From Bacteroidales bacterium (lineage in GTDB: Bacteria; Bacteroidota; Bacteroidia; Bacteroidales; JAQUTK01), in NCBI GenBank assembly GCA_028709785.1, contig JAQUTK010000012.1, forward strand, positions 1-64,000: a stretch of DNA of 64,000 nucleotides, given 5' to 3'. The translations under genes and the position numbers were made by a program. The notes beneath the pieces are model-generated. The model saw only the letters and a program-made list of their open reading frames with translations, was not told the origin of the DNA and ran no database searches. Shown here piece by piece: positions 128 to 16,264 of the stretch. Positions within the stretch are counted from its first letter, which is position 1. Every line of letters begins with the position of its first letter.

Positions 128-184
128 ATACTGTACCCAGAAACTAAGTTGTACCAAAAAGAATCTAAGTGAAAGATAATCAGA

Positions 185-264: not shown

Positions 265-280
265 AAATAAAATTAAATAC

Positions 281-288
281 TATCTTTG
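281..288 (+). promoter_or_regulatory. Bacteroidetes -7 promoter element for the integrase gene
   Basis: TATCTTTG matches the TAnnTTTG -7 consensus of the primary Bacteroidetes sigma factor and lies 27 bp before the integrase start. A TTTG about 20-25 bp upstream, inside an arm-type repeat, could act as the -33 element. Confidence 0.6.
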
Positions 289-315
289 CAAGCATAGGAA
301 ACAAAGAGTAAAACT

Positions 316-1539: not shown

Positions 1540-1543
1540 TGTT

Positions 1544-1723
1544 ATGAGCAAGAAACTCCAAAACAAAAGCCCTAAAGACCCGATGATCGAATTCATGAAG
1601 AGTATTTTCAGGGATATGAAAGAAGAAACTGAGAGGGTGCAAAAACTTGTAGAGAATGGAGTAATTGAGCCTATGCCAGATAAAGAGGGTATCGTTTATA
1701 ATATTCCAGAGAGCAAAAAATAG
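1544..1723 (+). CDS. Small hypothetical protein (59 aa)
   Basis: Short gene starting 4 bp after the integrase stop and ending 6 bp before the next gene, so it fits between them as part of one transcript. The product is charged and helical (MSKKLQNKSPKDPMIEFMKS at the start) with no signal peptide or membrane segment. I recognise no family. Tight packing between two genes on the same strand is the main evidence that it is real. A recombination directionality factor is possible from size and position, but no HTH is evident. Confidence 0.5.
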   Translation: MSKKLQNKSPKDPMIEFMKSIFRDMKEETERVQKLVENGVIEPMPDKEGIVYNIPESKK

Positions 1724-1729
1724 ATTGTA

Positions 1730-2866
1730 ATGGACAAAACAATAGAAAGGTCTTTTTTCAAAGCATACAGTTTTGGCGGTGTGCTACACATGTGCTTTGA
1801 TTGGATGATGAAAAAATATGATTTGGGGTTTTATTTGAATAGGGAAGATGAAAAGAAAGCACAAAATAAACCTCCTGAAGAGTGGGAAAAGTTCTATGAT
1901 GAGATTTTGCCCCAACGTATCAAAGAAGCAATAGAGGCTTTTGACAGAAGTGTTATAGAGTCTATTGATAGTCCTTTGATGGATGAGATAGCTGGCAATC
2001 TGGATGAATGTCAGAATGATATGCAAAGAGAAAGATATGTATTTTCTTTGCTGAAACCGTTCAAAGAGTATAGCGACAAATTTCACCCAATTTCAGAAAT
2101 TAAAAAGTTGAAAGGTGAAGTAAAGGGGATTGTTGGTATTAAAGATACGGAACAAGATTTAGGGTATTGGAATAGTATCCTACCAAATGAACCGGCGGCA
2201 GCTTGTAAGGAATATATTGAAGAATGCAAATACAGAATAGAGCGAACTAACTTTGTTGCAAACAGATATAGGGAATTATTAGGCAGCAGTAATACAGAAA
2301 GATGGTTACAAGATGGAACAGTGGAAAATTGTATGAGTACATTACGTCATTATCTATTTATGTTTGCTCGTAGGCTAGATGCATTATTACTTGAGCGTGG
2401 AATAAACTTACTCTGGTATCAGAATGAATGTGGAATCTATCTATATGAAGACAGATGTATTTCTCATGTAATGGATTACATAGGGAGCTATGAATTAGCA
2501 AGCAAGTATATTGAAGAGGCTTTGCCAAAATATCCAGAATCTCAATCTGAAAACGATATGATTTTACCAAGTGAATTAGATACAGAGAAAGCCCGGAAAT
2601 ATTTTACCAAAGCCATCGAAGCTGGTTACATAAAAAGGAATAATAGCGGTTACAAATGGGAATATGGCGGTAACAAGGGACAAGTACGGCTTGGCTATTT
2701 CTGTTCTAAAGTATATGACACACAACCAAGACCCATAAATAAATTAGAAACTACATTTGGAGTTAAAAAACTATCTGCATCTATTACTAGCGCTAGTTAT
2801 GATGCAAAAACAGCGAGTGTAAAACAATGGAAAAAAGAAATTAACGATACAATTTTCAATGATTAA
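1730..2866 (+). CDS. Hypothetical protein (378 aa) downstream of integrase
   Basis: Soluble, charged protein with no signal peptide or membrane segment and no family I can name. The N-terminal two thirds look helical. The C-terminal part (about 280-340) contains a block rich in Tyr, Gly and Lys (EAGYIKRNNSGYKWEYGG) that reads like a small winged-helix or DNA-binding module, though this is weak. It is the third gene of an integrase transcript and ends just before a strong terminator shared with the opposing tape measure operon. Its position beside the integrase would fit a cargo, regulatory or recombination-accessory role. Confidence 0.75.
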   Translation: MDKTIERSFFKAYSFGGVLHMCFDWMMKKYDLGFYLNREDEKKAQNKPPEEWEKFYDEILPQRIKEAIEAFDRSVIESIDSPLMDEIAGNLDECQNDMQRERYVFSLLKPFKEYSDKFHPISEIKKLKGEVKGIVGIKDTEQDLGYWNSILPNEPAAACKEYIEECKYRIERTNFVANRYRELLGSSNTERWLQDGTVENCMSTLRHYLFMFARRLDALLLERGINLLWYQNECGIYLYEDRCISHVMDYIGSYELASKYIEEALPKYPESQSENDMILPSELDTEKARKYFTKAIEAGYIKRNNSGYKWEYGGNKGQVRLGYFCSKVYDTQPRPINKLETTFGVKKLSASITSASYDAKTASVKQWKKEINDTIFND

Positions 2867-2891
2867 TGAAGCATTTACCTGGTAAACAAAA

Positions 2892-2924
2892 AGAGGGCGT
2901 GTCTGAATTTCTTACACGCCCTCT
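2892..2924. terminator. Bidirectional terminator between integrase and tape measure operons
   Basis: An 11-bp perfect GC-rich stem (2892-2902 with 2914-2924) with A-rich sequence on its left and T-rich sequence on its right. It lies between two convergent genes and can end both transcripts. Confidence 0.85.
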
Positions 2925-2944
2925 CTGATTTATTGAGAATAATG

Positions 2945-5900
2945 CTATGATATTCCTCGTGATAACAAAGAGCTGCCAGAACTGCCAGAGCCTTCAATAC
3001 GTTTTAGAGTTAAGTCTATAGCTTCCAATTTTCTACAATAAGAGGTATTGTCTGCTATTTGCTGATGTACAATTAATGATTGCCTCAATAACGATAGACC
3101 ATCAGCCTGGTTTATTACCACGGCATTTAATTTGCCCGCTACAATTCCTCCTGTTTCTTCACTGAGGGATTTTACAGCCCCAGTTAAAGGGTCCTTACTT
3201 TTGTCTGAATCAAGAGATATACCTGCTGCCTCTATCATTTTCTTATATTGCTCATTTGCCCCTTCAACAATACCTTTATACTCATCCTGTCTCGCTTTTA
3301 CTTCATCATCTGAAAGTACACCATCTTCCATATTGTTTGAAAAGTTGTCATACCAGCTTTGTAATGAATTATCGACTACTTTGCTTTTCACAAGCCTCAA
3401 TATGGCATCTTGCATTAATTTGCTAAAACTACCAGATATGGATTTGAATGTAAGTTCTGCCTGACTTGCAAGATCCATAATACTATTAGAGGCATCATCT
3501 AATGTGAACCCAGCTAAAGCTTCTTTCATTATTTTTGCCAGATCTTCTGTTTCGAGCCCTGCATCAATAACATTCTGAGCATAGGTTTTCACTTCATCAG
3601 GTAGTTTAGCCCATTGATTCGCATTGTCTTTCATATAAGATGTCCACTCCTTAGCCGACATGGTGAGTAGTTTCTGACGGCTCAATACATCACCCATATC
3701 TTTGTCGTATTTATACCAATTTGAGTGTGAGAACATTCCTGCACCTTTGGCAAACCAACTTTCAAGAGAGCTACGTGCAGCAACAATCTTTGCGTTTATC
3801 ATTCCTATTCCTTCCTGGTAGGCTTGTAAAGCATCTTTCCCTGACAAAGATTCTGTTAATTCTTTTTGTTTGTCAATGAGGGTGTTATAGACTTCTACCA
3901 ATTTGTTGTAATATTCAATTTCTTCCTGCAGTCTTTTATTCCTTCTGTCAGATCCAGAATCAAGCAAACTTAGTCCATGAGAAATTACAGAAATAGATCC
4001 CTGAATTATTGAAATAGGATTTCCAGTAGCAATACCAGTAGCCAGCTGACTTGCACCATCAAGTACTCCATCAATGTCATTGAGCATATTTTCAGTAGTC
4101 TCATCCATCTCAATACCCATTGTTTTGATACCGGATACAACTGAATCAAAAGCCTCTTTTGTTGCTCCCAGTGCTGCCGATGAGGCTTCCATTAATTCTG
4201 AGTAATTAATCTTACTGGACTCTTCTTTATATCTTTTGATTGCATCAATCAATGATAGAAATGGATTCTTTTGCTGAATAGCATCGGTGACCTGATCAAT
4301 CCTGTTTCTCAAATCATTCAAAGCCTCAGGAGATAATTCGATCTGGCTCCAACTTGATTCTATTTTATCCCTCAATTCGATCATCTTTGAAACGGCCAAA
4401 TGATCAAGATTGCCAAACAACTGTTTCCATTCCTCAGAGTCCATCAGATTCTCTGTAAACAAAGCAGATATTCTTTGAGCTTCCCCTTTGTTTATTTCAG
4501 CTATAGCAGACATATTTCCATTCTTAATAGCGTTCTCTCTAAGTAAGGCATACTCTTTCTGAATAGAAAGTCTTTGCTCCTCATAGGTTCGATAATCTTT
4601 GAGGATCCGATCATTCAGTTCTTTTTGTGTTGCCTCATCCTGCTGATTCAGGTAAACAGAGGCCGATGCTTTATCATCATCACCCACCAATCCGGTATTG
4701 CCGGATCTGAGCTTTTCCTTTGCATCAGCAATAGCCTGTATCTTTTCAGCTAGCGTACTCGCTCTGTTGATTGCCTGAGAAACACTTTCCTTGAAAGCAT
4801 CCATAGCTGTTTTAGCTCCAGTGATCTCATCATACTGAATAGTCAGGTTTATCAGATTATTGGCCTCACCCTCGGATAAAGCGCCTGTAGCCTTTTTGTC
4901 ATTTAGCTTCTGGATCTCTTTCTCAACATAATCCTTATAGGAATTACCCCCTTTGAGCAAATTATTGAAATGAGTATTGGCTACATCTTCACCCATATTC
5001 TTCACCCAGCGGAAATAAAGCTCATATTGGCTCTTCTTGTACTCAATTTCACCATCAAAGAGTTTATTCTGAGCTTTGCTATAGCTGGCATCTTCATTCG
5101 CTCTACGGGCTCCAAATTCGCTTTTCTCTTTAGAGGATAATCCACCTTTCCCTGCTTCTTTTCTTGCTTTCTCCAGTTCCTTCTCTTCTTTGTCAATCTG
5201 AATAAGGTTCTGTTTATGCTGGAGATCCAGAAGGGCCTTTCTCTTATCATAGCCGTCCTCCATGATCTCAATCCTGGACTGCTCAGCTTTTAGCTCAGTC
5301 TGGATCTGTTTTTCAGAAAGCTGTTGCGCTTTGTTATCCATCGCGCTGGTTTTCTTGGGGATCTTAGCCTCCAGATTATCAATGGTTCTGGTGAGCTCGT
5401 TGTATTTTTTACTGTTGATCTCGACATTCTCGCGCTCATCTTTCAGCTCTTTTATCCTGGCATTGATTCCAGACTCGGTGTTCAGATCCTTTGTCTTGCT
5501 GCCAATAGCAGAATTAACCTGGTTAAGTAAACCCAGCAGATTGGTAAGCTTGGTATTATCGGCCTCAACCTTGACCTTTTTAGCATTGATCTTATCAATT
5601 TCGCTCTGGGTTTCTTTGGCTTTTTTGTCTAACTCTTCAAAGGTCATTTTGGCATAATCCATGCTGTCTGTCACTGCTGCTTTTGGCTGTGCGTTATACA
5701 TCCTGTTTATTTGGCCCGTGAGATTATCCAGTGCAGCACCTGTTTCTTTGCTTGCTCCAGACATTTTAGACAGATAGGCCGATACTTTAGCACTAAACCC
5801 ATCCATCTCTTTGTCCGTTGCTCCAGTAGCCTGCTGAACCGATTTAAGGATCTGATCTAAGGACTTATTAAAAGCCTCGGTATATGCAGATCCGGTAAGC

Positions 5901-8206
5901 GCCTTTAGCTTATCACCAGCCTCCATACTCATGGATTCTACAGCGTCCCATACAGCTTGTGAAGCTTGACGGATATTAGCAGAATTATCATAAATGGTCC
6001 TTGTTCCATTACCGGATCCATAATCTACAGTTTTGGAAACATATTTAGCCTCCCCGGCATCAGATATAAGGCGATTCTTTAAGTCTGCTTGTTTCTCGGC
6101 CAAAGCTGCCATTTCCTGTTCAACATATTTGGCCTTTATCTTTTCAGCAGTAGCCGCCTGAATGGCTATTGTAAGCTCCTGGTACTTTGCCTGCTGATCG
6201 GCTAATGTTGAATTCTCGGTAAGTAAGGTTTTATTGTACTCTTGGCAAATAGCATTCACTTTCTCCAGAGCTTGTTTATGGGCCGTACTGCTCTTCTCTG
6301 TATTCTGGAGTATAGCCATATAGCTCCTTAGCTCATCACCGGATTTTCTGGTCGCATCCTGAAACTCACCTTGTACAGTCTTAGCCTCATCGCCCTTACT
6401 GGAGAAGATCATGAAGGCGCTTGCTGCTAATCCTATTGCAGTAGTAATCCATCCAATGGGGTTTGTCATCATCGAAGCCCAAAGAGCCTTAAGTCCCAAT
6501 GTGAGCCGTGTGGTAACAGTACTCAGCAGTGATGTTGCAACTGCCTGAGTTCCTTTTGCTGCTGTATCGGCCACGCTGGCAACTGTTGATTGCCTGGTAG
6601 CAGTTGTTTCCAGGAGTTTCTTTTTTGAGTAAAAATCAGAGGATGCTGCTAATGCTGTTTTGCGGGCTATAGCTTGACTTTCAATGGATGCCTCCATCCT
6701 TTTTTCAGCTAGAGCAATCTGAGTTACATTGCCAGACTGTTTAGCCCAATATAATTGGTACCTTGCAGATTCAACAGCTTGCATGGAAGTGATTGCATTT
6801 AATTTTGCTGTCTCCATTTTAACAGCTGCTGCTTTAACATCTTCACGCATCATTGCCATTGTAGCAACAGTTGTCTGATTTTTAGTCAGTACTTCCTTTT
6901 GGAGGGCTGCCTGGTATATGGCACTCTTAGCGGAAAGATCTGTTTTACTTAAAGCTTCTCTCTGTTCAACAGAAAGCACACTCATTGCAACCGTTTCATA
7001 GTTTGCGCTGGAAGCGGTTACATTCAAATTGGAAAGATATTCCTGCTGCTGGGCTGTTAGTAATTGCTCAATGGTGAGTATTCTCAGCTGTTTAGCCAGG
7101 TTAGCCTGTTCCTCAACAGTGAGTTGTTTTTGTAAGGATAACGTATAGGCCTGCTGGGCGGCGGTCATTTTTGCGGTTACAGCAGCTGTTTTTCCGGTAA
7201 GAACCTCATCCGCTTTCATTAAAGCGATCTTTGCCTGTCTGACAGTGTTGTCAATCAGAGCAATGCCAGTATTCCCCTTTGTGGCTAAAGTATTCAGGAC
7301 AATAGCAGCCCTATAGGAGCCGTATGCTGTAGCTATAGCCTTCACAACATTCAGAACTTCATCTAGGTGCTCAACTGCTGTGATAGCCCCGGATATGCCA
7401 GATTCAAGTATTCCCTGGTTATCTTCACCAAGTTTATTTAAGGCCATATCCCAGGAGTCACCCAGGTTAGAGATCATACCAGTGAGCGACTTACTTTGTC
7501 GCTCCATCAGATTGTAGAATTGACCGCCTGAATTAGTCATTTTGTTGATCACTTTCTCAACCTCAGGGAAACCGACCTTTCCCTCTGATACCATATTAGT
7601 GATCTCTTCTGCTGTTTTACCGTACATGGCAGCCAGCTCGCGAACCAAAGGAATACCTCTACCAGTAAACTGCCTTACATCCTGAGCATATAAGCGCCCC
7701 TGAACCATTGTAGTACCATAGAGGTAAACTATATCATTGAGAGGTATGGAAAGCCCTGAGGCGATGTTTCCAAGCCTTACAAGCGTATCATTTACTTTGT
7801 CTGCTGATGCACCATAAGCTAACAGCTGCTTTGCACCTCCGGCAACTCCCATCAGGTCATATGGAGTTTTAGCGGCTGTATTAGTGAGCTGATCCATCAG
7901 GGCCTTTGACTTAACACCAGAGCCCAGCATTGTATCAAATGCTATCTGTAACTGCTGGAATTGCCCGCGCGTTTGAACGATACTGTTTACCAGGCCCATC
8001 ATTCCACCGCCAACCAGAGTACCGATAATATATCTGGCTCCGTTCTGAGCAAAATCAGATATAGCCTTATCCATCCTCTCTGATTCTACAACAGCTGCAT
8101 TTGAAACGTTTCTAATCCTACGTTCCATAGCCTCAGCAGATACATTGAATTTATCTAGATCAAGGCTGGCCTCGAAAGCCAAACCTCCACCAATGTTTTC
8201 ACTCAT
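2945..8206 (-). CDS. Phage tail tape measure protein
   Basis: Very long protein (1753 aa from the chosen start) of the tail tape measure family, which sets tail length in siphoviruses and myoviruses and takes part in DNA ejection. The N-terminal region, roughly residues 60-270, shows the conserved tape measure domain with FQQLQIAFDTMLG, TAAKTPYDL, VYLYGTTMVQGRLYAQDVRQ and RGIPLVREL. A long Ala/Gln-rich helical stretch follows, then a hydrophobic segment containing NPIGWI (about 575-600), then long charged coiled-coil regions and more helical repeats. I prefer the ATG at 8206 (MSENIGG) over the one at 8239, because it overlaps the end of the upstream gene by 8 nt. The gene fills a third of the element. 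No tail tube, baseplate, portal or capsid gene accompanies it, which is unusual. Confidence 0.92.
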   Translation of the reverse strand: MSENIGGGLAFEASLDLDKFNVSAEAMERRIRNVSNAAVVESERMDKAISDFAQNGARYIIGTLVGGGMMGLVNSIVQTRGQFQQLQIAFDTMLGSGVKSKALMDQLTNTAAKTPYDLMGVAGGAKQLLAYGASADKVNDTLVRLGNIASGLSIPLNDIVYLYGTTMVQGRLYAQDVRQFTGRGIPLVRELAAMYGKTAEEITNMVSEGKVGFPEVEKVINKMTNSGGQFYNLMERQSKSLTGMISNLGDSWDMALNKLGEDNQGILESGISGAITAVEHLDEVLNVVKAIATAYGSYRAAIVLNTLATKGNTGIALIDNTVRQAKIALMKADEVLTGKTAAVTAKMTAAQQAYTLSLQKQLTVEEQANLAKQLRILTIEQLLTAQQQEYLSNLNVTASSANYETVAMSVLSVEQREALSKTDLSAKSAIYQAALQKEVLTKNQTTVATMAMMREDVKAAAVKMETAKLNAITSMQAVESARYQLYWAKQSGNVTQIALAEKRMEASIESQAIARKTALAASSDFYSKKKLLETTATRQSTVASVADTAAKGTQAVATSLLSTVTTRLTLGLKALWASMMTNPIGWITTAIGLAASAFMIFSSKGDEAKTVQGEFQDATRKSGDELRSYMAILQNTEKSSTAHKQALEKVNAICQEYNKTLLTENSTLADQQAKYQELTIAIQAATAEKIKAKYVEQEMAALAEKQADLKNRLISDAGEAKYVSKTVDYGSGNGTRTIYDNSANIRQASQAVWDAVESMSMEAGDKLKALTGSAYTEAFNKSLDQILKSVQQATGATDKEMDGFSAKVSAYLSKMSGASKETGAALDNLTGQINRMYNAQPKAAVTDSMDYAKMTFEELDKKAKETQSEIDKINAKKVKVEADNTKLTNLLGLLNQVNSAIGSKTKDLNTESGINARIKELKDERENVEINSKKYNELTRTIDNLEAKIPKKTSAMDNKAQQLSEKQIQTELKAEQSRIEIMEDGYDKRKALLDLQHKQNLIQIDKEEKELEKARKEAGKGGLSSKEKSEFGARRANEDASYSKAQNKLFDGEIEYKKSQYELYFRWVKNMGEDVANTHFNNLLKGGNSYKDYVEKEIQKLNDKKATGALSEGEANNLINLTIQYDEITGAKTAMDAFKESVSQAINRASTLAEKIQAIADAKEKLRSGNTGLVGDDDKASASVYLNQQDEATQKELNDRILKDYRTYEEQRLSIQKEYALLRENAIKNGNMSAIAEINKGEAQRISALFTENLMDSEEWKQLFGNLDHLAVSKMIELRDKIESSWSQIELSPEALNDLRNRIDQVTDAIQQKNPFLSLIDAIKRYKEESSKINYSELMEASSAALGATKEAFDSVVSGIKTMGIEMDETTENMLNDIDGVLDGASQLATGIATGNPISIIQGSISVISHGLSLLDSGSDRRNKRLQEEIEYYNKLVEVYNTLIDKQKELTESLSGKDALQAYQEGIGMINAKIVAARSSLESWFAKGAGMFSHSNWYKYDKDMGDVLSRQKLLTMSAKEWTSYMKDNANQWAKLPDEVKTYAQNVIDAGLETEDLAKIMKEALAGFTLDDASNSIMDLASQAELTFKSISGSFSKLMQDAILRLVKSKVVDNSLQSWYDNFSNNMEDGVLSDDEVKARQDEYKGIVEGANEQYKKMIEAAGISLDSDKSKDPLTGAVKSLSEETGGIVAGKLNAVVINQADGLSLLRQSLIVHQQIADNTSYCRKLEAIDLTLKRIEGSGSSGSSLLSRGIS

Positions 8207-8447
8207 GATCGTTTTCCCTTTGTAGTTTTTGATACTCAATGAGCTGTTTTAAGGACCTGCCAATGTTAGCATAGAATCCTATTAAAGCCTCATTCTTTCC
8301 ATTCTCATTACTCTTAAGTAGTTCATTCACCAATAACCCTAATGTTGATATTTGGTTTTCCGGGTTATTTATGTGAGCAACATCTTTATTCCTAGCATTC
8401 AGGATAACATCTAATAGAGCATCTTGAATTAATTTATCATCTGTCAT
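8199..8447 (-). CDS. Small hypothetical protein upstream of the tape measure gene
   Basis: An 82-aa soluble, helical protein with no recognised family. Its stop overlaps the tape measure start by 8 nt, which points to translational coupling. In many tailed phages the gene just before the tape measure encodes a tail assembly chaperone. That role is possible from position only, and the protein is shorter than most such chaperones. I see no slippery frameshift site. Confidence 0.65.
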   Translation of the reverse strand: MTDDKLIQDALLDVILNARNKDVAHINNPENQISTLGLLVNELLKSNENGKNEALIGFYANIGRSLKQLIEYQKLQRENDHE

Positions 8448-8598
8448 AATTCTTGTTTTTAGCTATTCACTTTCTTTATTAGAATATGAATAATGTACGT
8501 TATTTAATTGATATACAGCGCATAATACGAAACGGTTTTATTACAGGAGACATATCAGTGACAAATCATGTCGTTATCATTCTTTTTCACCGGAATAT
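8448..8598. other. Short gap without a supported gene
   Basis: AT-rich spacer between two leftward genes. The only reading frames are under 20 codons. No convincing promoter or terminator is visible. Confidence 0.4.
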
Positions 8599-9114
8599 CT
8601 AAACCGTTTTGACCGTTTCTTTTGCATTGAATTCGAGTGTTTGGCTTGATTTATTTTTGAGCCTGATTTTCTCCAGGATTTCATTATACTGCAATAGTTC
8701 CTCAGTAGTAAGAATGGATAGATCCACCTCCACATTGTGATTTACTGTACTCTCTATTTCACCCTCAAAAATCTGTGTAGGTTTACCGAACAATCGATCA
8801 AAGACAGTATTGAGTGTGTTGATTCTACCAGATTTCACATCCATAAAGATGGCACTAATGATATTCGATACCCAAACGGGAATATTCTCATCTTTAGCGA
8901 TTCTCTTTAATTCACCTGGTGTACGTTCCATCAGATAACTAATAACATTGTAATAATCCTCTTTGCTCAACTCAACCTCGACACGCTTTAAAGTAGTTTT
9001 AAAAAGCTGCTTATATAGTGTCGGTTTTCTGCCTGTTTTTTTAGGTTGCCTCGTTGCTGAAAAACGCATTCCTAAAGCGTTTCCATGCTGAAATCCTTTT
9101 ACTCCCTTAGCCAT
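8599..9114 (-). CDS. Terminase small-subunit-like / DUF5681-like protein
   Basis: A 171-aa basic protein. The N-terminal GNALGMRF...KKTGRKPTLYKQL stretch resembles the basic tail of DUF5681 and of Bacteroidetes small-terminase-like proteins. The motif FDRLFGKPTQ near residue 115 matches the R(M/L)xGKPxQ motif common in those families. Small terminases recognise viral DNA for packaging. No large terminase is recognisable in the element, so if the assignment is right, this protein could redirect a helper phage's packaging machinery, as small terminases of some phage satellites do. The family assignment is from motif reading only. Confidence 0.55.
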   Translation of the reverse strand: MAKGVKGFQHGNALGMRFSATRQPKKTGRKPTLYKQLFKTTLKRVEVELSKEDYYNVISYLMERTPGELKRIAKDENIPVWVSNIISAIFMDVKSGRINTLNTVFDRLFGKPTQIFEGEIESTVNHNVEVDLSILTTEELLQYNEILEKIRLKNKSSQTLEFNAKETVKTV

Positions 9115-9171
9115 ATTAATGTCGATTTAATGCCGATTTACAAAAAGAGGGAGCCTAAGCCCCCGTCTTTC

Positions 9172-9801
9172 TTAATGAATGTATTTGAGATAATAACCAT
9201 CAAGTTCTACCTCACCATCATAGTTCACACTTAAGATCCTAGCTCCATCACCAGATAAAGGGGCAATACCACGAACCCGATCTATATCATCGTAGACCTC
9301 TTTGATTGTCTGATCCAATTCATCCAGGGCTTTTTTAGCAGCTAAAGCCTTTTCATAAACTTTCTTCCTGTTGTCTGTATCTACATAAATCGATCCAAGA
9401 TCCTCGGCCTCTTTGATAGCCTCATCGGTTATGATAACTTTTCCGTCAATCAGATCCAATTTAAGAAAATCAACATGATGTTGATCGTGTTCTCCCATTG
9501 ATCTTTTGGCCTCCTGAATAAGTGCATTGCATTCCCGGATCAATTTATTGTTATCGGATTCAACTACCCTCTTTAAAGCTTCTGGAAGGTCCTGGAGTTT
9601 CTTGCTATCTCTATTCTGAAATAAAGGAGCAATGGGGAAATTTTCCTTTATTATAGACCGAACAAGATTAAGGCTAACCTCGATATTTTGATTTTTGAGG
9701 AAATCAATGATTTTTTGCGAGTAGATTCTGGCTCTTTCATAGTCGCTTTTATAAGCCTTTACATCTTTCTCATCACGATATACTAAAATTCTTTTTTCCA
9801 T
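9172..9801 (-). CDS. Hypothetical protein (209 aa)
   Basis: Soluble, highly charged, mostly helical protein. A coiled-coil-like segment (about 145-180) rich in Lys, Asp and Glu precedes a short beta-rich tail (ILSVNYDGEVELDGYYLKYIH). There is no signal peptide, membrane segment or recognised motif. It lies in the leftward run between the replication genes and the tape measure gene. A structural or packaging role is possible but not shown. Confidence 0.7.
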   Translation of the reverse strand: MEKRILVYRDEKDVKAYKSDYERARIYSQKIIDFLKNQNIEVSLNLVRSIIKENFPIAPLFQNRDSKKLQDLPEALKRVVESDNNKLIRECNALIQEAKRSMGEHDQHHVDFLKLDLIDGKVIITDEAIKEAEDLGSIYVDTDNRKKVYEKALAAKKALDELDQTIKEVYDDIDRVRGIAPLSGDGARILSVNYDGEVELDGYYLKYIH

Positions 9802-9894
9802 TTCTCTTAATAATTTGCCCTGTGTGGCCTTGAATATATTCTATATGGTATTTATCCAACAAAACAGTTCAAAGCCACATAGGAGTTTATACTA

Positions 9895-10119
9895 TCAAAA
9901 ATCAGCCGTTTTTTGGCCGTTTGATGTTGTGCCTACTTTTGATCCAGCCGGAACTGAGATTTGATTGAGTAATTCATCAGCAGACGAATCCTCTTTCTCT
10001 TTCGACTTATCTTTCAAACCTGATAATTCGGTTTCGAGTGCTTGGATCTTTGCATCCTTTTCTGCAACAACGCCTTGGAACTTTTGCTCTATAGCGTTCA
10101 ATCTTTCTTCTAATTCCAT
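9895..10119 (-). CDS. Small coiled-coil protein (74 aa)
   Basis: Residues 1-45 have the heptad spacing of a coiled coil (MELEERLNAIEQKFQGVVAE at the start, then KDAKIQALETELSGLKDK). A polar tail follows. The gene begins 2 nt after the stop of the small gene upstream, so the two are probably co-translated. No family recognised. Confidence 0.65.
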   Translation of the reverse strand: MELEERLNAIEQKFQGVVAEKDAKIQALETELSGLKDKSKEKEDSSADELLNQISVPAGSKVGTTSNGQKTADF

Positions 10120-10121
10120 GA

Positions 10122-10298
10122 CTATCCTACATTATTAGGTTTTATTCTCTTAATCACTTCTTTAGCAACCTTGACAGCAATCTCAGCATTATCAGAAGGT
10201 TTACCAGATACACCTCTGGAGTATAATCCGGCTATTACAGCTTTTACGACTTCAAATTCTCTTTGCTCCCAGTCGATAGTTTTTACTTGATCTTCCAT
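10122..10298 (-). CDS. Small hypothetical protein (58 aa)
   Basis: Runs from ATG at 10298 to TAG at 10122 and begins MEDQVKTIDWEQREFEVVKA. It is helical, mildly charged and has no membrane segment. It sits between the replication organiser (stop 10319) and the coiled-coil gene (start 10119), separated from the latter by 2 nt. This tight packing supports it as a real gene. Function unknown. Confidence 0.6.
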   Translation of the reverse strand: MEDQVKTIDWEQREFEVVKAVIAGLYSRGVSGKPSDNAEIAVKVAKEVIKRIKPNNVG

Positions 10299-10318
10299 TT
10301 TCTTTGAATTAAATTGTT

Positions 10319-11080
10319 TTACAATGTATCCCTATAGCCATCTGAGTCGTTTGAGAAATTATTTTTTGATGATTCAAAATTATTAGATCTACCTGGTGAA
10401 TCTTTAAGCTCGAATAAACCAGCCCAGTTATTTGCCATTGAGTTCTCAATCATCTTGTGCGCTTTCTCCACGTTTCCTCCAGATAACTTTAGGATCCTCT
10501 TATAGCAGGCTTGCAATGAAGCCTCGGTTTTATAGGATTCTCTTCTTTCTTTTTTATACTCCAGCCAGCATTGAAAGACTTCTAAAAAATCCTCGCTAAC
10601 AAATGATAAATCACAATTTGAATTATTCCTAAAACCAGCCTTTTTAGGTGTATTCTTATCATTATTATCATTCTTGTTATTCTTATCATTCTTGTTTGTG
10701 TGAGTTATCGTTGGGCTATCGTTGTTTGATCGTTGGGCTATCGTTTGGCTATCGTGTAAATCACCTTGGTAACTATCATAATTACAGACCGTTATCCGTG
10801 TGGTTTTTCCAAGCGATTCATGTTCAATCATGCCATCTTTTTCTAATAGTACTAAGAAGTTTCTGGCTTTATCTTTGGATACCTTCCAACGATCAGCCCA
10901 ATTACTCAAACTCATAATAGATTGACCTCTCCCACATTCATATAATTGCATCCCTATATTCACTTTTGCGGGGGTATGATTAACTGTGATAAGTATATCC
11001 AACCACCATTTTAGTTTTAAGGGATCATTCCAGATCCAATGGGATGTTATGCCTCTATGTATTTTTATCCATCCCTCCAT
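10319..11080 (-). CDS. Phage-type replication organiser (DnaD-like)
   Basis: About 253 aa from the ATG at 11080 (MEGWIKIHRGI), which is the usual start of this family and removes overlap with the upstream gene. The N-terminal part (about 1-105) has the pattern of phage replisome organiser winged helices (HWIWNDPLKLKWWLDIL, WADRWKVSKDKARNFL). A low-complexity Asn/Asp/Lys linker (about 125-150) leads to a C-terminal helical domain (about 170-230) with NSMANNWAGLFELK, typical of DnaD-like replication proteins. It probably recognises the element's origin and recruits helicase with the DnaC-like ATPase encoded 7 nt upstream. Confidence 0.8.
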   Translation of the reverse strand: MEGWIKIHRGITSHWIWNDPLKLKWWLDILITVNHTPAKVNIGMQLYECGRGQSIMSLSNWADRWKVSKDKARNFLVLLEKDGMIEHESLGKTTRITVCNYDSYQGDLHDSQTIAQRSNNDSPTITHTNKNDKNNKNDNNDKNTPKKAGFRNNSNCDLSFVSEDFLEVFQCWLEYKKERRESYKTEASLQACYKRILKLSGGNVEKAHKMIENSMANNWAGLFELKDSPGRSNNFESSKNNFSNDSDGYRDTL

Positions 11081-11087
11081 ATCAAAA

Positions 11088-11744
11088 TTATTTTCTGTAG
11101 CTTTTACCAGTGAAATACACTTTGTCAAACATTTCATTGAAACGGTCTGAAATCCTTATTCCATAGCGATCCCTCAGCTCAGTATCATTTAGATTGGAGG
11201 TCGCCAGGGTGAAAAGTTGTTTATCATACCTGGCATAGATGAGTTCTGTAACCGGAGAATATTCATTTCCCCAGCTTTTCACGCTTGCAGGCTCTACACC
11301 AATATCATCAACGAAAAGCATTTGAAGGTCTTTGAGCTTGTTGAAGTAAGCCGGATCATCAGCAACCTTTTTTGCCATATCCAGAGCGGAAATACGAAAG
11401 ATCTCTTTCCTTTCTGAGGCAACAGAACTATTAAACAGGATACTTATAAGGCAGCTTATTGCACGTCCCAAAGTTGTTTTTCCATTGCCAACTCCACCAT
11501 ATAACATAAGGCCCGTTTTGTAATTACCAGTGAGCCATCTTGCAGCTTTAGAAATATTTTCTTTTGTCTTTTCATCGCATATAAGATGGATATTCCTCAT
11601 TTCCACCTCACTTTGATAACAGCGCATTAGCATATTGCATACAGTCTGTTCATCAAAGTGAACAATCCTGAATCGTTCAACAGCGTTACTGCTCATCTTT
11701 TTGTTAAGGGCCTCCTGAAACCTATCTAACAGATCATTATCCAT
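11088..11744 (-). CDS. DnaC-like AAA+ helicase loader ATPase
   Basis: A 218-aa ATPase of the DnaC/IstB type. Walker A GGVGNGKTT is at 83-91 and Walker B LFVDDIG at about 143-149. The sensor-like stretch TLATSNLND and an arginine-rich end (RYGIRISDRFNEMF) follow. DnaC-type proteins load the replicative helicase. Paired with the replication organiser, this indicates that the element directs its own replication using host helicase. An IstB transposition role is unlikely because there is no transposase. Confidence 0.85.
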   Translation of the reverse strand: MDNDLLDRFQEALNKKMSSNAVERFRIVHFDEQTVCNMLMRCYQSEVEMRNIHLICDEKTKENISKAARWLTGNYKTGLMLYGGVGNGKTTLGRAISCLISILFNSSVASERKEIFRISALDMAKKVADDPAYFNKLKDLQMLFVDDIGVEPASVKSWGNEYSPVTELIYARYDKQLFTLATSNLNDTELRDRYGIRISDRFNEMFDKVYFTGKSYRK

Positions 11745-11745
11745 A

Positions 11746-12210
11746 TTACTTAGAATTTACCTGGTTAACAGCTCGGTTTCTTAGTATATGCATTTCCTCC
11801 ACCAACTCATTGTCGTATAGTAGATTAAATAGCCTTTTTTGGTTATTCTTATAACCTCTGGCTACAAATATCTCCATACTAGAGTAATCCGGCGAAAAGA
11901 CAAAGAGTAAAGCATCCTGAGTACCTTTTACATCTCCATAACCCAACTGTTGCTTATCAAGGGATGGAATGAAAACACTGCTTATACTATTAGTATTGGT
12001 GATACATCTTTCTGCCTTATTCTTTGCATTTTCACTGAATGAATTTGGCAAGCCATTGTAGTAACAGAAAAAACGTTTTACCCGGCTTTTGCGTGCAATA
12101 TCTTCAAAAGTAGGATATTCTCCTGTTGAGGCTTTGCAGTCAAAACGTGGAGTTCTATTCATAAGGAACTCCGCTAGACGTTCTAACCGATAGTAGTCTG
12201 TGAGGATCAT
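11746..12210 (-). CDS. Hypothetical protein in the replication module (154 aa)
   Basis: Soluble protein with no clear family. It contains LTDYYRLERLAEFL near the start and the aromatic stretch RVKRFFCYYNGLPNSF near residues 43-58. The start overlaps the stop of the HTH gene (ATGA), and the DnaC-like gene starts 2 nt after its stop, so it belongs to one transcript with the replication genes. Confidence 0.7.
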   Translation of the reverse strand: MILTDYYRLERLAEFLMNRTPRFDCKASTGEYPTFEDIARKSRVKRFFCYYNGLPNSFSENAKNKAERCITNTNSISSVFIPSLDKQQLGYGDVKGTQDALLFVFSPDYSSMEIFVARGYKNNQKRLFNLLYDNELVEEMHILRNRAVNQVNSK

Positions 12211-12548
12211 TTTACACCTCCTTTTCTACAATATGTATTTGCACGATTAGTTATCTCTGCAGAAGTTGCTACTCTGTTGCCTTGTAAGAACTGTTCAAGC
12301 TCGGCACGATTAAAATAACAAACTTTACCCATAGGTTTGTAATGAGGTATTTCTTTTCTCATTGTGAGTTTGTATAGATAACTCTTAGAGATCCCCATGT
12401 ATCTTGCAGTCTCATCGCTTGTTAGCACTTCCTTAGTGCAAAAAATAGTGTTTGCCGTTATAAGGTCGGCTACCTGTTTCCAATCCTCTGACATAATCTT
12501 ATTTTTAGAGGTTCGGGTCATCTGGGTTGAGGTGTAAGACTCACTCAT
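12207..12548 (-). CDS. MerR-like helix-turn-helix (HTH_17 / excisionase family) protein
   Basis: About 113 aa from ATG at 12548; a GTG at 12554 is an alternative start. The central region shows the excisionase-type winged HTH: LTSDETARYMGISKSYLYKL, then IPHYKPMGKVCYFNRAELEQFL. Such proteins act as excisionases or as regulators of mobile element replication. It is first in the leftward operon and lies directly beside two strong inverted repeats that are good operator candidates. Whether it is Xis, a repressor or a replication protein cannot be told from sequence alone. Confidence 0.8.
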   Translation of the reverse strand: MSESYTSTQMTRTSKNKIMSEDWKQVADLITANTIFCTKEVLTSDETARYMGISKSYLYKLTMRKEIPHYKPMGKVCYFNRAELEQFLQGNRVATSAEITNRANTYCRKGGVK

Positions 12549-12555
12549 ATTCACC

Positions 12556-12608
12556 CTGTAATCATATGGAGTAATAGGCTTACACTCACTATATCCATCT
12601 GATTACAG
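12556..12608. promoter_or_regulatory. Inverted repeat over the leader of the HTH gene
   Basis: CTGTAATCATATGGA (12556-12570) pairs with 12594-12608 at 14 of 15 positions across a 23-nt spacer. It ends 7 nt before the preferred ATG of the HTH gene. As DNA it could be an operator. As RNA it would cover the ribosome-binding region of the leftward operon. Confidence 0.5.
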
Positions 12609-12643
12609 TGCAAAGGAACCTACAATGAGAATGCAAGAAAAGG

Positions 12644-12668
12644 AGCTATAAATAGTCTATTTATAGCT
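12644..12668. promoter_or_regulatory. Perfect 11-bp palindrome in the divergent control region
   Basis: AGCTATAAATA (12644-12654) and its exact complement (12658-12668) flank a 3-nt spacer. The site lies between the leftward replication operon and rightward genes. It is AT-rich and lacks a T-run, so an operator or origin element is likelier than a terminator. Confidence 0.45.
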
Positions 12669-12950
12669 ATCATGCAAAAAATGTTAAGGTCGAGCTATTG
12701 AAGAGGAGTATAATATTCATTCTTCAAAGTGTGTTATGGAACACATGGGCGAAAATCAACGAACAATCAACGGATGGCACAATTTGAAAAAGAAAATAGC
12801 TCAGGAAAAGAATATATATTTTCTTCTAACAAACAGCCTCAGAAAAGAGGCATGAAGGCTTCTATATCTAACACATTAAAACATCAACTGGAAGGAAAGA
12901 AGAGAGTGAAATGAGTTAGGACATTATCAAAAAGTATAAACTGTAACCGC
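12669..12950 (+). other. Control region with two possible very small ORFs
   Basis: Two overlapping frames could encode short basic peptides. One runs from 12736 to 12855 (39 aa, starting MEHMGENQRTINGWHNLKKK). The other runs from an internal ATG at 12774 to 12914 (46 aa, ending LEGKKRVK). Neither has a clear ribosome site or recognised family, and I cannot choose between them. The rest is AT-rich intergenic sequence. Confidence 0.3.
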
Positions 12951-12958
12951 TATATTTG
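12951..12958 (+). promoter_or_regulatory. Bacteroidetes -7 promoter element
   Basis: TATATTTG matches TAnnTTTG and lies 17 bp before the following start codon, a normal distance in this phylum. Confidence 0.6.
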
Positions 12959-12975
12959 CAATAAAAGACATTATC

Positions 12976-13197
12976 ATGAGTAAAATCGAACTAAACGCAA
13001 AACAAAAGGCTGTGATCCAGAAATATCTGAATGGAGAATACAGCCCCTTTCTATCGCATGAAGAGGATCAGGAAGCAATAAATCAGGTTCTGGATATGGC
13101 AAATGATCTGGAGGAGGAACTTGATGCGTATGATGAATCCGGCGATGATCTTGTTAAGTGGTTTTGGGAACAATACCAGAAGCAAGAACAGCAGTAA
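12976..13197 (+). CDS. Small acidic hypothetical protein (73 aa)
   Basis: Acidic helical protein starting MSKIELNAKQKAVIQKYLNG, with an Asp/Glu-rich centre (NDLEEELDAYDESGDDL) and an aromatic, Gln-rich end. No membrane segment and no family recognised. It has its own promoter match just upstream and is followed by 345 bp without genes. Its size and strongly negative charge would fit an anti-restriction or DNA-mimic protein, but that is speculation. Confidence 0.65.
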   Translation: MSKIELNAKQKAVIQKYLNGEYSPFLSHEEDQEAINQVLDMANDLEEELDAYDESGDDLVKWFWEQYQKQEQQ

Positions 13198-13542
13198 TCT
13201 GAAAATAAAAGGATCAGGTTGATCAATAATATGATTTTCTCAATCAAAAGTGTGTTTGACAAACACATAATCACCTGATTATCAGCAAATAATATGAAAA
13301 TAATTTGTTTGCTACAAATAAACATTTTATTTTTGTGTCGCTATCATATATTACAAAGGTGAATACATCCACTTCTCAAAAAAGGGTGTATTTATGAATT
13401 CATAGATTAGACATTGTGCTAAGAAATTAGCGGTGTGTACCCCCGTGTGATTGGTTAATGCCATCACAGCCTTTGTAATAGGTGATAGCGAACGGGAAAG
13501 GCGCACCGTCTTTTTGTGCCTATATCTTAAAAAACTAATGTT
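13198..13542. other. 345-bp non-coding region with several inverted repeats
   Basis: No reading frame longer than about 15 codons is convincing on the plus strand. The left half holds small palindromes, such as GTGTTT-GAC-AAACAC near 13251-13265, in AT-rich DNA. The right half holds the long-range paired segment listed separately at 13338-13491. An origin of replication, a structured RNA or a leader for the genes that follow would all fit. Confidence 0.5.
13338..13491 (+). ncRNA. Candidate structured RNA or origin, closed by a 22-nt inverted repeat
   Basis: The 22-nt arms at 13338-13359 and 13470-13491 are complementary at 20 of 22 positions, with only the two positions near the middle unpaired. 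Between them an internal hairpin can form (TGTGAT near 13446 with ATCACA at 13463-13468), and a G/C-rich stretch GGTGTGTACCCCCGTGTG stands out from the AT-rich surroundings. The stem could be RNA or a DNA cruciform. The overall shape, a long closing stem around about 110 nt, recalls retron msr-msd transcripts, but no reverse transcriptase is present. The plus strand is chosen only because the genes that follow are on plus. Confidence 0.45.
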
Positions 13543-13965
13543 ATGAGTACAGTTGTAGTGAATGAAGAAACTTTATTTAAAGATTGGCAAAAGTCACGTT
13601 TTGAGGCCGCTATGTTCAATGTATTACATGAGGTATGTGAATTAGGGGATTTAGGGCAAAATACTGAGGTATGTAACTCTATAATTGAAGGGATGTCTGC
13701 ATATATTGACATAAACGGATGTCAACCGCTTGATCCTAACAATGAAAGTCCCAATAATGTTGTTAGATGGTTGTTTTCAACACACAGATCTCTCAATAGT
13801 ATTTTTTACAATTTAAGCATAATGAATACTTTGATTAAATACGTTGATGAAAATAAGGGCCTGCAATCTTATATCGAAGGATGTAAGAACTCAAAAGAGA
13901 ATGAAGTTATGCTATTGTCAAGAAAGATGGAAGAGTGCACAAACAAAAACAAGCAAATATTATGA
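13543..13965 (+). CDS. Hypothetical protein (140 aa)
   Basis: Soluble helical protein starting MSTVVVNEETLFKDWQKSRF. No family, signal peptide or membrane segment recognised. It is first of a rightward run of small genes that begins 51 bp after the structured segment. Its last codons overlap the next start (ATGA), indicating translational coupling. The run lies in the accessory part of the element, where defence, anti-defence or lysogeny functions are common. Confidence 0.7.
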   Translation: MSTVVVNEETLFKDWQKSRFEAAMFNVLHEVCELGDLGQNTEVCNSIIEGMSAYIDINGCQPLDPNNESPNNVVRWLFSTHRSLNSIFYNLSIMNTLIKYVDENKGLQSYIEGCKNSKENEVMLLSRKMEECTNKNKQIL

Positions 13966-14210
13966 TTTTCGAATATGAAGGACAGATTTGCTGTGTAATA
14001 GCACAAGATCTGGAGGAACTAAGTATGATAAAGAATAATTTACTGCAATCCGCATCACTTATTTCTGGAATTACAGAAGATGTATCGCGGGAAATGTCTG
14101 GTGTTGTTGATATACTAAAAGCACTTGAATTTTCAGATGATCAATATGCTGACATTCAACGCGCTTTGAAAGAATCAAATTGTAAACTCGTATACGAACG
14201 TTTTATATAA
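13962..14210 (+). CDS. Small hypothetical protein (82 aa)
   Basis: I start this at 13962 (MIFEYEGQICCVIAQ) rather than at 13935, because the ATG then overlaps the upstream stop as ATGA. The N-terminus looks like short beta strands; the rest is helical and acidic. Function unknown. It is the second gene of a coupled pair. Confidence 0.65.
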   Translation: MIFEYEGQICCVIAQDLEELSMIKNNLLQSASLISGITEDVSREMSGVVDILKALEFSDDQYADIQRALKESNCKLVYERFI

Positions 14211-14215
14211 ATGCT

Positions 14216-14488
14216 ATGGAAACATTTGAAATAAAAAACATGATCATGCAGATGTCTGAGTTAGGAGCTGCTAACTATGCAAAAAGAATTGCTCCGGCAA
14301 AAGATGCAATCTCTCAAAGAGAAGCATATAGATCATTCGGTGAGGCTCGTGTAAAAAGATGGATATCTCAAGATTTAATCAGTTCGGTAAGAAGTGGAGA
14401 TACCATAAGATCAAAGGTACTCTACTCATTAGCTGAACTGATATCAGTTGAGACTTCTGAAAAAATAGCACATATCGTAAACAGATAA
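14216..14488 (+). CDS. Small hypothetical protein (90 aa), possibly DNA-binding
   Basis: Starts METFEIKNMIMQMSELGAAN, 5 bp after the previous stop. A mid-region stretch (EAYRSFGEARVKRWISQDLI) reads like a helix-turn-helix recognition helix of the kind used to select a site or partner. The evidence is weak and no family is assigned. Confidence 0.65.
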   Translation: METFEIKNMIMQMSELGAANYAKRIAPAKDAISQREAYRSFGEARVKRWISQDLISSVRSGDTIRSKVLYSLAELISVETSEKIAHIVNR

Positions 14489-14499
14489 AACATCAAATT

Positions 14500-14772
14500 A
14501 TGAACAATAACACAAACACAAATAGCATTTCAAATAAAGCGACAGGAGATGATATCAGATTGTTAACCCTAAATATCATGCACTCAATTCAGAGTGTTAG
14601 AGATGACATAGAAAATTTAAAAAAGAGTGAGACTATTCAGGAAAGTTATAATAGTCAATTGAGTGAAGCAAATGCCTCGCTATGTGGATTAAATAGTTTA
14701 ATGGGTGATATTATTGGATACACTGTAGCTGATGATATTTGGGAAAGACAGCCAGTAAGCCTGAAAGGATAA
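14500..14772 (+). CDS. Small hypothetical protein (90 aa)
   Basis: Polar, Asn/Ser-rich start followed by a helical segment with heptad-like spacing (LLTLNIMHSIQSVRDDIENL). No family recognised. It is last of four closely spaced small genes before the promoter of the ADP-ribosyltransferase-like gene. Confidence 0.6.
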   Translation: MNNNTNTNSISNKATGDDIRLLTLNIMHSIQSVRDDIENLKKSETIQESYNSQLSEANASLCGLNSLMGDIIGYTVADDIWERQPVSLKG

Positions 14773-14805
14773 TTCTCACACAAAAAACTATATCAATTAA
14801 TTTTG

Positions 14806-14813
14806 TATATTTG
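14806..14813 (+). promoter_or_regulatory. Bacteroidetes -7 promoter element for the ART-like gene
   Basis: TATATTTG matches TAnnTTTG and lies 14 bp before the following start, giving the ART-like gene and its partner their own transcription unit. Confidence 0.55.
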
Positions 14814-14827
14814 TATTTTTAAAACCT

Positions 14828-15832
14828 ATGATTATGATCGAAGAAAAAGAAATAAAGAATTGCATCCGCGGGATTAATAAACGTCTGGAAGATAAGCGGA
14901 TTAACCGCTTCTGCAACGCTGCTGTTAAGGCAGGATATATAAAGTCCTTAGAGATCCTAAAAAAAAGGACTTGCAACTATGAAGATGCAAATATTAAGGA
15001 GCTACCATCTACACAAAGCCGCGCTATTGCCGTGCTGGCTGTTGACTTCCTGAACGGAGAATGTACTGAGAGTGTTTTACTCGGTGTACCAATTAGTATG
15101 AAAGATACACCAATAAATGTAAATGCTTTAATAGAGTACGGACAACAAAGCACGGGTTTGAAAGTTGCTTATTACTCCAATCAGATGACAATAGAGAGTT
15201 ATATAGAACGATTAACTCAACTATCCATAGAATCAGCCATTAAAGCTCTTGAACCTATAAAAAGAGAAGAAATTTCTGATAGTATAATCACTACTATATT
15301 ATTCAATATTGATAATAAAACCTGCTGGGATGTATTCTGCTATATTAATGATCACTATAAATTAACGAAACAAGCACAGGCAGAAGGGTTAAAATATTCA
15401 TGGGTTAATGGACGCGCGGACGTTAGGGCACTTTCTTTATTCTCTAAAGTACCTCCCAAGTTGATTATGGATGAAGAGGAAAATAAGAAATATATGGAGA
15501 TGCCTGATATAATAAGAATATACAGAGGATGCCATAAAGATGAGGCTGATTTTGAAAATGGTAATTTCTTTGGATTTAGTTGGACTTATAACAGGGAGAT
15601 AGCTGAGTTTTTTGCTTTTAGAGATTGCACACATACAAAAGAGGATGGAAGAGTTTTCTCTGTTACAATACCCAAAGACTATATATATGCCATAATCTTG
15701 GATAGAGATGAGGATGAGGTAATATTTGATTTCCAAACTCATTTTGAAGATCCCAATAAAGCAGAAATAATAACTGAGGTTCCTACATCATATTATGACA
15801 ATTTTTTGATAAGAAAAAATGGGAATAAATAA
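14828..15832 (+). CDS. Putative ADP-ribosyltransferase-fold protein
   Basis: 334-aa soluble protein; a second ATG at 14834 is an equally good start. The C-terminal third carries the spaced signature of arginine-type mono-ADP-ribosyltransferases: Arg233 in IYRG, Ser251-Trp-Thr253 followed by the NAD-site-like NREIAEFFA, then an acidic E-x-E at Glu295-Asp-Glu297 followed by VIFDF. The order R, S-x-T, E-x-E fits that class. The N-terminal 200 residues are helical and unrecognised. Phage enzymes of this class modify host proteins, while bacterial ones include toxins and anti-phage effectors. The gene overlaps a small downstream gene by 14 nt. The assignment rests on motif spacing alone. Confidence 0.55.
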   Translation: MIMIEEKEIKNCIRGINKRLEDKRINRFCNAAVKAGYIKSLEILKKRTCNYEDANIKELPSTQSRAIAVLAVDFLNGECTESVLLGVPISMKDTPINVNALIEYGQQSTGLKVAYYSNQMTIESYIERLTQLSIESAIKALEPIKREEISDSIITTILFNIDNKTCWDVFCYINDHYKLTKQAQAEGLKYSWVNGRADVRALSLFSKVPPKLIMDEEENKKYMEMPDIIRIYRGCHKDEADFENGNFFGFSWTYNREIAEFFAFRDCTHTKEDGRVFSVTIPKDYIYAIILDRDEDEVIFDFQTHFEDPNKAEIITEVPTSYYDNFLIRKNGNK

Positions 15833-16130
15833 TGAGGTTTATTTCTCCGGGGTAACAGAGGACTACTCTAACTACAGATGGTATAAAGGCGAGACTGAGA
15901 ATCCCTATACAGGGGACAAAGAAAAGCCCTTTGCTGCCAGGCTGTGGGAATATGAAAGAGACTTTCATTTTAGCTATCTGGACTCTCCAGGGAATAAGAC
16001 ACTGAAAGAGGCTTATCAGGAATGGAAAAAGAGCTTTGTTGAGGACTATTTACCTGGTAAATCACCAAATCCATACGGCGACTCCACGAATTGGGGTAAT
16101 GTCTTTGAAACAGGAAAGAGAGAATTGTAA
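15819..16130 (+). CDS. Hypothetical protein (103 aa) overlapping the ART-like gene
   Basis: Aromatic- and charge-rich small protein starting MGINNEVYFSGVTEDYSNYR, with PYTGDKEKPFAARLWEYERD in the middle. No membrane segment or family recognised. The 14-nt overlap with the upstream gene means the two are probably made together. Small proteins encoded this way beside ADP-ribosyltransferases are sometimes immunity factors or hydrolases, but no hydrolase motif is visible. It is the last gene before the terminator and right att site. Confidence 0.65.
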   Translation: MGINNEVYFSGVTEDYSNYRWYKGETENPYTGDKEKPFAARLWEYERDFHFSYLDSPGNKTLKEAYQEWKKSFVEDYLPGKSPNPYGDSTNWGNVFETGKREL

Positions 16131-16146
16131 AGGCTCTCTTTTTTTA
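16115..16146 (+). terminator. Terminator of the rightward accessory operon
   Basis: An 8-bp perfect stem (16115-16122 with 16134-16141) followed by a T-run. The upstream gene's stop codon lies in the loop. Confidence 0.7.
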
Positions 16147-16182
16147 TGCGTGATATAGGGGAAAAGTAGGGGTGTTGTTGTT

Positions 16183-16202
16183 TTTGGCTACCCTTTGGCT
16201 AC
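16183..16202. repeat. Integrase arm-type sites at right end
   Basis: TTTGGCTAC occurs at 16183-16191 and 16194-16202, 11 bp apart. Word and spacing match the left end of the element (243-262). The right att core follows 50 bp later. Confidence 0.65.
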
Positions 16203-16211
16203 CTAAAGAAT

Positions 16212-16246
16212 AAAAAAAGCCTCAAAATCAAATGATTAAGAGGCTT
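16212..16246 (-). terminator. Terminator behind tRNA-Leu, supplied by the element
   Basis: On the minus strand a 7-bp stem (16240-16246 with 16217-16223) is followed by a run of T. It stops transcription coming out of tRNA-Leu before it enters the element. Because it lies inside the att core, the element itself brings it. Confidence 0.6.
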
Positions 16247-16251
16247 AATTT

Positions 16252-16264
16252 GTACCCAGAGCCG
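16252..16264. other. Right attachment core, overlapping the tRNA 3' end
   Basis: GTACCCAGAGCCG is identical to 115-127. It covers the last 12 bases of tRNA-Leu (acceptor strand and start of the T arm) plus one flanking base, so integration leaves the tRNA gene intact. Confidence 0.75.

Follow-up and report, generated by a model that had tools for sequence, protein, structure and literature searches.

What is the structured segment in the non-coding gap between two open reading frames, one ending at 13197 and the other starting at 13543, of a 64,000-nt stretch of Bacteroidales DNA (the window)? An earlier note had drawn attention to positions 13338-13491 as 154 nt closed by a 22-nt inverted repeat, and had offered an origin of replication, a regulatory leader or a stable non-coding RNA as possible roles. 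We find that the segment belongs to a real RNA family and is not a chance structure. This family, of small phage-type RNAs in Bacteroidota, is probably new, and its members would act as antisense repressors of the adjoining gene on the same strand.

The segment has a stable RNA fold

Of the 22 positions in each arm of the inverted repeat (13338-13359 and 13470-13491), 20 are paired, as 9 bp, a TA/GG mismatch and 11 bp. The segment indeed lies between the two reading frames, and the G/C-rich block that the earlier note had described is found at 13439-13454, where it forms the conserved core of the RNA family. When the + strand is folded as RNA, the minimum free energy is -58 kcal/mol, compared to a mean of -30.6 (sd 3.7) for shuffled sequences (z -7.35), and none of 200 shuffles is equally stable; RNA of the - strand gives a z of -5.9. 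A covariance model of the 3' half of the RNA (R1) matches the window with 79.3 bits (E 5e-22), the window itself being among the seed rows, and finds a single copy of the RNA in the genome.

The RNA family is spread through Bacteroidota

A direct DNA search with the region finds no homologue in phages or in the bacterial family of the window, and an exact 18-mer from the window is absent from viral contigs. An order-wide DNA search returns three loci (L016, L020 and L033) whose closing stems differ in sequence and still pair; the remaining matches are mostly AT-rich chance. The motif read from these three loci gave the search pattern CCCCGTG-N7-TTAATG ... ACGGGAA, which is present in 55 viral contigs and 70 genome contigs, nearly all from Bacteroidota, including Bacteroides, Parabacteroides, Alistipes, Odoribacter, Tannerella, Flavobacterium and Chitinophagaceae. 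More than 110 homologues are found in phages, prophages and chromosomes of Bacteroidota, with relatives also in named Porphyromonas phages and in Bacteroides phage BS-TP3. Three pattern matches outside Bacteroidota (L103, L149 and L161) lack the closing stem P1 and were dropped as chance. Searches with R1 detect the RNA in 16 of 393 genomes of the order and in 4 of 395 genomes across the phylum (both counts include the genome of the window), often in several copies. Loci that share the neighbour genes of the window copy (homologues of a 73-aa protein and of phrog_17289; L009-L015) have no copy of the RNA within the stretch examined. The contig of one of them (L012) carries a copy elsewhere (L065), which points to mosaic exchange.

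The window and the homologue loci scanned match no Rfam 15 family at the gathering threshold, and permissive scans give the same result. In the literature on C4, on SymE in Bacteroidetes and on antisense RNA of Bacteroides prophages, we found no description of this RNA.

Conserved anatomy and covariation

The members of the family have a common layout, in which a -7 box is followed by a closing stem in two parts, by a hairpin whose loop is UUAAUG, by a covarying pseudoknot and then by a U-run. A -7 box of the form [TC]AnnTTTG begins exactly 11 nt 5' of the stem in 51 of 76 distinct duplexes, compared to 7 of 576 control windows. In the window, a Bacteroidetes-type promoter is predicted on the + strand at 13304-13335, with TTTG at 13304-13307, a 20-bp spacer and the -7 box TATTTTTG at 13328-13335. 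The closing stem P1 consists of P1a (9 bp), a bulge and P1b (about 11 bp). All further parts of the window copy lie on the + strand. The P1a 5' strand TCGCTATCA (13338-13346) pairs with TGATAGCGA (13483-13491), the position of the antisense guide in the family, and the P1b 5' strand TATTACAAAGG (13349-13359) pairs with CCTTTGTAATA (13470-13480). The variable interior (13360-13430) contains, in most homologues, a P2 hairpin and a P3 hairpin with a U-rich loop, both degenerate in the window copy (alignment A2).

The pseudoknot is formed by two pairings. Strand X (CGGTGTG, 13431-13437) pairs with strand Y (CGCACCG, 13502-13508) just past P1, and the core strand CCCGT (13442-13446) pairs with ACGGG (13492-13496), a helix that is replaced by CCCTC/GAGGG in Porphyromonas phages. 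Between them lies the hairpin (13447-13467), whose stem covaries and whose UUAAUG loop (13455-13460) is invariant, its letters being part of the search pattern. Thus P1, the UUAAUG hairpin, the CCCGT/ACGGG core and the X:Y pseudoknot are all present in the window copy. The U-run at 13511-13515, 3' of X:Y, is a probable terminator; at least four T follow Y in 104 of 123 homologues. Immediately after it, strand Z (GTGCC, 13516-13520) could serve as an alternative partner of Y and would then loop out the U-run. Such a 5-nt complement of Y occurs downstream in 46 of 75 homologues, compared to 8 of 75 after shuffling, and the choice between Y:Z and X:Y looks like that between an antiterminator and a terminator. 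From the promoter, the U-run and the R1 match, we delimit the RNA as about 179 nt (13337-13515). The arms of the segment as first described stand, while its extent was slightly short, as the RNA runs from about 13337 through Y to the U-run; neither its promoter, its pseudoknot and its U-run nor the pairing with a target had been recognised.

Because the search pattern fixes the letters of the core and leaves P1, X:Y, the promoter and the downstream gene free, these features serve as independent tests. The covariation analysis across homologues that the earlier note had proposed reveals strong compensatory change. P1a is strongly variable and compensated, with two-sided changes in eight of its nine pairs. 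P1a, core and hairpin together are 96.7% paired, compared to 76.2% after shuffling, with 233 two-sided changes versus 52; X:Y and the hairpin show 202 versus 43. The row starts of alignment A2 were picked from P1a pairing, which somewhat favours the P1a pairing when taken alone; the fixed distance to the promoter, and the fall of pairing to 34-45% on every slide of the partners by one to three columns, indicate that it is real.

These results bear on two other readings of the inverted repeat. As a DNA element, either a replication origin or a recombination site of the mobile element, it would fit a location beside small genes, with replication-loader-like genes at a distance of 1.5-3 kb in the window, but the covariation is of the RNA type and includes G-U pairs, the promoter lies at a fixed offset, a U-run follows, start codons are paired as targets in relatives (see below) and stand-alone copies occur beside SymE genes among chromosomal housekeeping genes. 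We consider this reading very unlikely, and of the roles first listed only the regulatory leader or stable non-coding RNA is kept, which agrees with the promoter, the U-run, the covarying fold and the start-codon complementarity of most homologues. The shape had also been likened to a retron transcript (msr-msd RNA), since a long closing stem surrounds a structured interior. This likeness is superficial: no reverse transcriptase is found among the ORFs of the element or the inspected downstream genes of homologues, conservation is seen at the 3' end and at the target rather than at the places of the branching G and the msd, and the paired ends serve another purpose, so that a retron is improbable in the extreme. 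Both readings fare worse than the antisense repressor.

The closing stem matches the start of the downstream gene in relatives

The 9-nt 5' strand of P1a recurs at the start of the downstream gene, and the sequences before the two copies are unrelated. A P1a 3' strand could thus have two alternative partners, the 5' strand of its own stem and the start region. For counting, the guide was defined as exactly the 9 nt that precede ACGGG at 114 loci, and guides swapped between loci were used as controls. An exact 9-mer target lies downstream at 39.5% of the loci, compared to 0.09% of the controls, and a target with at most one mismatch at 60.5%, compared to 4.2%. A separate count of matches of at least 8 nt gives 55% versus 2.6%. 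The sites are closely placed, as 33 of 69 lie over the AUG, 35 end 0-5 nt before it and one lies elsewhere. Pairing of the guide with the target often extends one or more bases beyond its pairing within the stem (longer in 22 cases, equal in 17, shorter in 3). Duplex energies separate less well than exact guide matches, with 44% of loci better than all controls. About 40% of loci have no site with at most one mismatch, and in some of them (L053, L065, L099 and L110) the guide could pair in two segments with a loop.

The module is present in nine Porphyromonas phage records. In these closely related phages it comes with four guides (TGTCATACA, TGCATTCCA, TGTCCTACA and TGCCTTACA), and each guide allele is changed jointly in the 5' strand, the 3' strand and the start region, with one mismatch left at two start sites. 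We see no explanation other than base pairing for this joint change in three places. That stem, guide and start codon change together is, for an antisense mechanism, comparative evidence of unusual strength.

A mobile intron was considered as a source of the repeated 9-mer and rejected, as unrelated sequence precedes both copies and the second copy lies over or before the AUG. One Porphyromonas phage has three modules in tandem (phage023a; L209, 2832-4193), which lie inside an annotated 453-aa 'hypothetical protein'; this ORF is probably a false call, given the three RNA modules within it. The genome of a Rikenellaceae MAG (CAMLTW01) holds about eight copies of the RNA, whose guides differ (L100, L105, L140, L143, L146, L151 and L155). 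Those with a called ORF precede a common family of 140-255-aa proteins without a Pfam match, and CCGTTG in several of the start regions could pair with CAACGG beside the guide.

Genes downstream of the RNA

Among the first downstream ORFs of the homologues, two clusters stand out: SymE-like proteins, with a match to PF08845 in 12 of 12 tested, and regulators, with 13 proteins matching pRha, ANT/KilAC, Bro-N or KilA-N. The others are small proteins without a known family, or hydrophobic. Several RNA-gene pairs lie among seemingly ordinary chromosomal genes, such as the RNA-SymE pair of Flavobacterium (L126). A -7 box between the RNA and the gene is seen at 1 of 100 loci, and with no promoter-like box before the start codon the gene is probably transcribed only by reading past the U-run.

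Eight of the downstream proteins that are otherwise unrelated (L093, L094, L120, L121, L124, L148, L166 and L209) have a common N-terminus of the type MxxTEKNxxxxNNSTxxTxxHET, which looks as though the module extended from the RNA over the first 20-30 codons, with exchange of what follows in the gene.

A promoter that RNA and gene seem to share would also suit a leader that acts on its own transcript only, as an attenuator or in the manner of a riboswitch. X:Y with the U-run would stop transcription and Y:Z would let it through, a signal or a protein would set the state, and the guide would open or close the start codon in cis. The frequent U-run and the excess of Y:Z pairing over shuffled sequences are in keeping with such a leader, yet a ligand pocket or protein site leaves the joint allelic diversification of guide and target unexplained, and the downstream genes have no pathway in common. 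We regard a purely cis-acting leader as possible and rather doubtful. The SymE cluster raises a second alternative, in which the RNA is at heart the antitoxin of a type I toxin-antitoxin system, and the SymE-like proteins, small membrane proteins and phage genes are its toxins. The 12 SymE-family genes, several of them chromosomal and away from phage genes as in Flavobacterium, and the small hydrophobic ORFs behind other copies point in this direction. Many downstream genes, however, encode phage regulators (Rha, Bro-N, KilAC and KilA-N) and not toxins, and SymE of E. coli is under an opposite-strand RNA rather than a same-strand leader. On balance we think it unlikely that the family is primarily of this type.

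Comparison with known systems

The closest parallel to a same-strand antisense repressor is the C4 RNA of phages P1 and P7 (RF01695), likewise a phage RNA whose gene precedes its target on the same strand, and in which the antisense strand has a copy of the pairing sequence on either side. Its specificity lies in short complementary segments. C4 RNA controls the expression of a phage antirepressor (PMC8546580, PMC8201110, PMC10695390) and acts in trans (PMC8546580). In the new family, most relatives have complementarity to the start region and 13 have antirepressor-type genes behind them; the window copy has no such complementarity. The RF01695 covariance model finds no match in the window or the homologue loci scanned. 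RF01695 is listed for Proteobacteria and phages (PMC2864571), whereas this family has Bacteroidota hosts. By the title of Citron and Schuster 1992, as cited in PMC8546580, C4 is a processed 77-base RNA, whereas the RNAs described here are about 160-210 nt with a pseudoknot and a U-run, and also precede SymE toxins and small ORFs. The family would work like C4 but is no member of it by Rfam model, host range or architecture.

Other systems share single features. SymR is transcribed from the strand opposite symE. In both cases a SymE-family gene would be under RNA control at its start region, but here RNA and gene are on the same strand, and the RNA is a leader that is complementary through a repeat. 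ToxI of type III toxin-antitoxin systems is a pseudoknotted RNA upstream of the toxin gene, sometimes in tandem copies, that binds the toxin protein. The pseudoknotted RNA 5' of a toxin gene and the tandem copies in places resemble it, but the variable part of the new family corresponds to the start of the mRNA, and its downstream proteins have no relationship to one another. Retron ncRNAs are similar in being structured with a long closing stem, and differ in their other conserved parts and in the reverse transcriptase, which is absent here. Fremin and Bhatt 2021 (PMC8040213) describe, in the parts of the text available to us, unnamed structured RNA candidates of Bacteroidetes, such as HMP_4078, near phage primase or integrase domains; these resemble the present RNAs in host group and phage gene setting, and no antisense mechanism of this kind is found in those parts. 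We judge the RNA family to be new and its antisense mechanism to be known in principle, the candidates of PMC8040213 having been compared by description only.

Proposed mechanism and a possible role in immunity

From these comparisons of sequence, we propose that the promoter directly 5' of the arm would give a pseudoknotted RNA of about 160-210 nt ending at the U-run. Its guide, the 3' strand of P1a, would be held in P1a until a target is met. As P1a and P1b together are longer than the target duplex, release of the guide would need a further step. Pairing with the target, in cis or in trans, would mask the AUG or the nucleotides directly 5' of it and block translation, and the downstream gene would be read only upon transcription past the U-run. 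A constant fold with a changeable 9-nt guide could give different phages or toxin loci specificities of their own.

The diversified guides with their matched targets suggest self-recognition between phages or loci, and hence immunity. In its strongest form, which we put forward tentatively, this would be a programmable immunity RNA with a conserved scaffold and an exchangeable 9-nt guide that silences start codons in trans, the scaffold having been adopted as a SymE antitoxin. If so, phages would be grouped by guide allele, with four groups in Porphyromonas phages and one tandem array of three, and the window copy, on a satellite-like element of 16 kb without a matching gene of its own, would be aimed at other phages. 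Bacteroidota phages are among the commonest in the human gut and their control of lysogeny is poorly understood. An RNA common before antirepressor genes would be a concrete switch, and the 9-nt code could predict immunity groups. Placed before SymE, the scaffold would offer control of type I-like toxins in Bacteroidota, on which we found nothing in the literature. Compensatory mutations make the guide system easy to test.

The window copy, its target and its host element

By its structure, the window copy belongs firmly to the family; its putative antisense function is suggested by the relatives. The ORF in the expected target position (13543-13965, + strand, 140 aa) has no match in Pfam, PHROG or PADLOC, and none to PF08845, and its start region is not complementary to the RNA. 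The best 9-mer there has three mismatches, and shuffles are equal or better in 63-77% of cases, part of this test resting on a per-locus alignment score that has low power even in obvious cases. Nothing convincing is found among all ATG starts in the window or the host genome at up to three mismatches. Of the two sister copies, L061 has no significant match in its downstream start region and L208 has a gapped match (p 0.005).

The window copy may have lost its target, or its target may be a gene located elsewhere, for instance in another phage. That it is a decayed relic without a target would agree with the searches of the next-door start region and host genome and with the degenerate P2 and P3 hairpins, but the promoter, P1, the pseudoknot, the UUAAUG hairpin and the U-run are all intact. 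Moreover, three separate elements, those of the window, L061 and L208, have the same 20 nt in the 3' strand (CCTTTGTAATAGGTGATAGC), which suggests that it is kept for a reason. We therefore hold decay to be an improbable account of this copy.

The host of the window copy is an integrated element of 16.1 kb (115-16264) between 13-bp repeats at 115-127 and 16252-16264, the latter lying at the 3' end of a tRNA-Leu(CAA) gene. Its products include an integrase, DnaC/DnaD-like loaders and a tape-measure-like protein. Inspection by eye revealed no capsid gene, and the element may be a phage satellite or remnant. An ORF at 14828-15832 (334 aa) has R-S-E-like ADP-ribosyltransferase motifs (YRG, FSWT and EVIFD) and matches phrog_4776, to which no function is assigned. 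Two operator-like palindromes are also seen, TGTGTTATGGAACACA at 12730-12745 and the perfect 17-bp TGTGTTTGACAAACACA at 13251-13267, 5' of the promoter. The latter is also found 5' of the RNA in the sister copies L061 and L208, and sequences similar to the palindromes precede the RNA in L061, L208, L099 and L080 and occur in L014.
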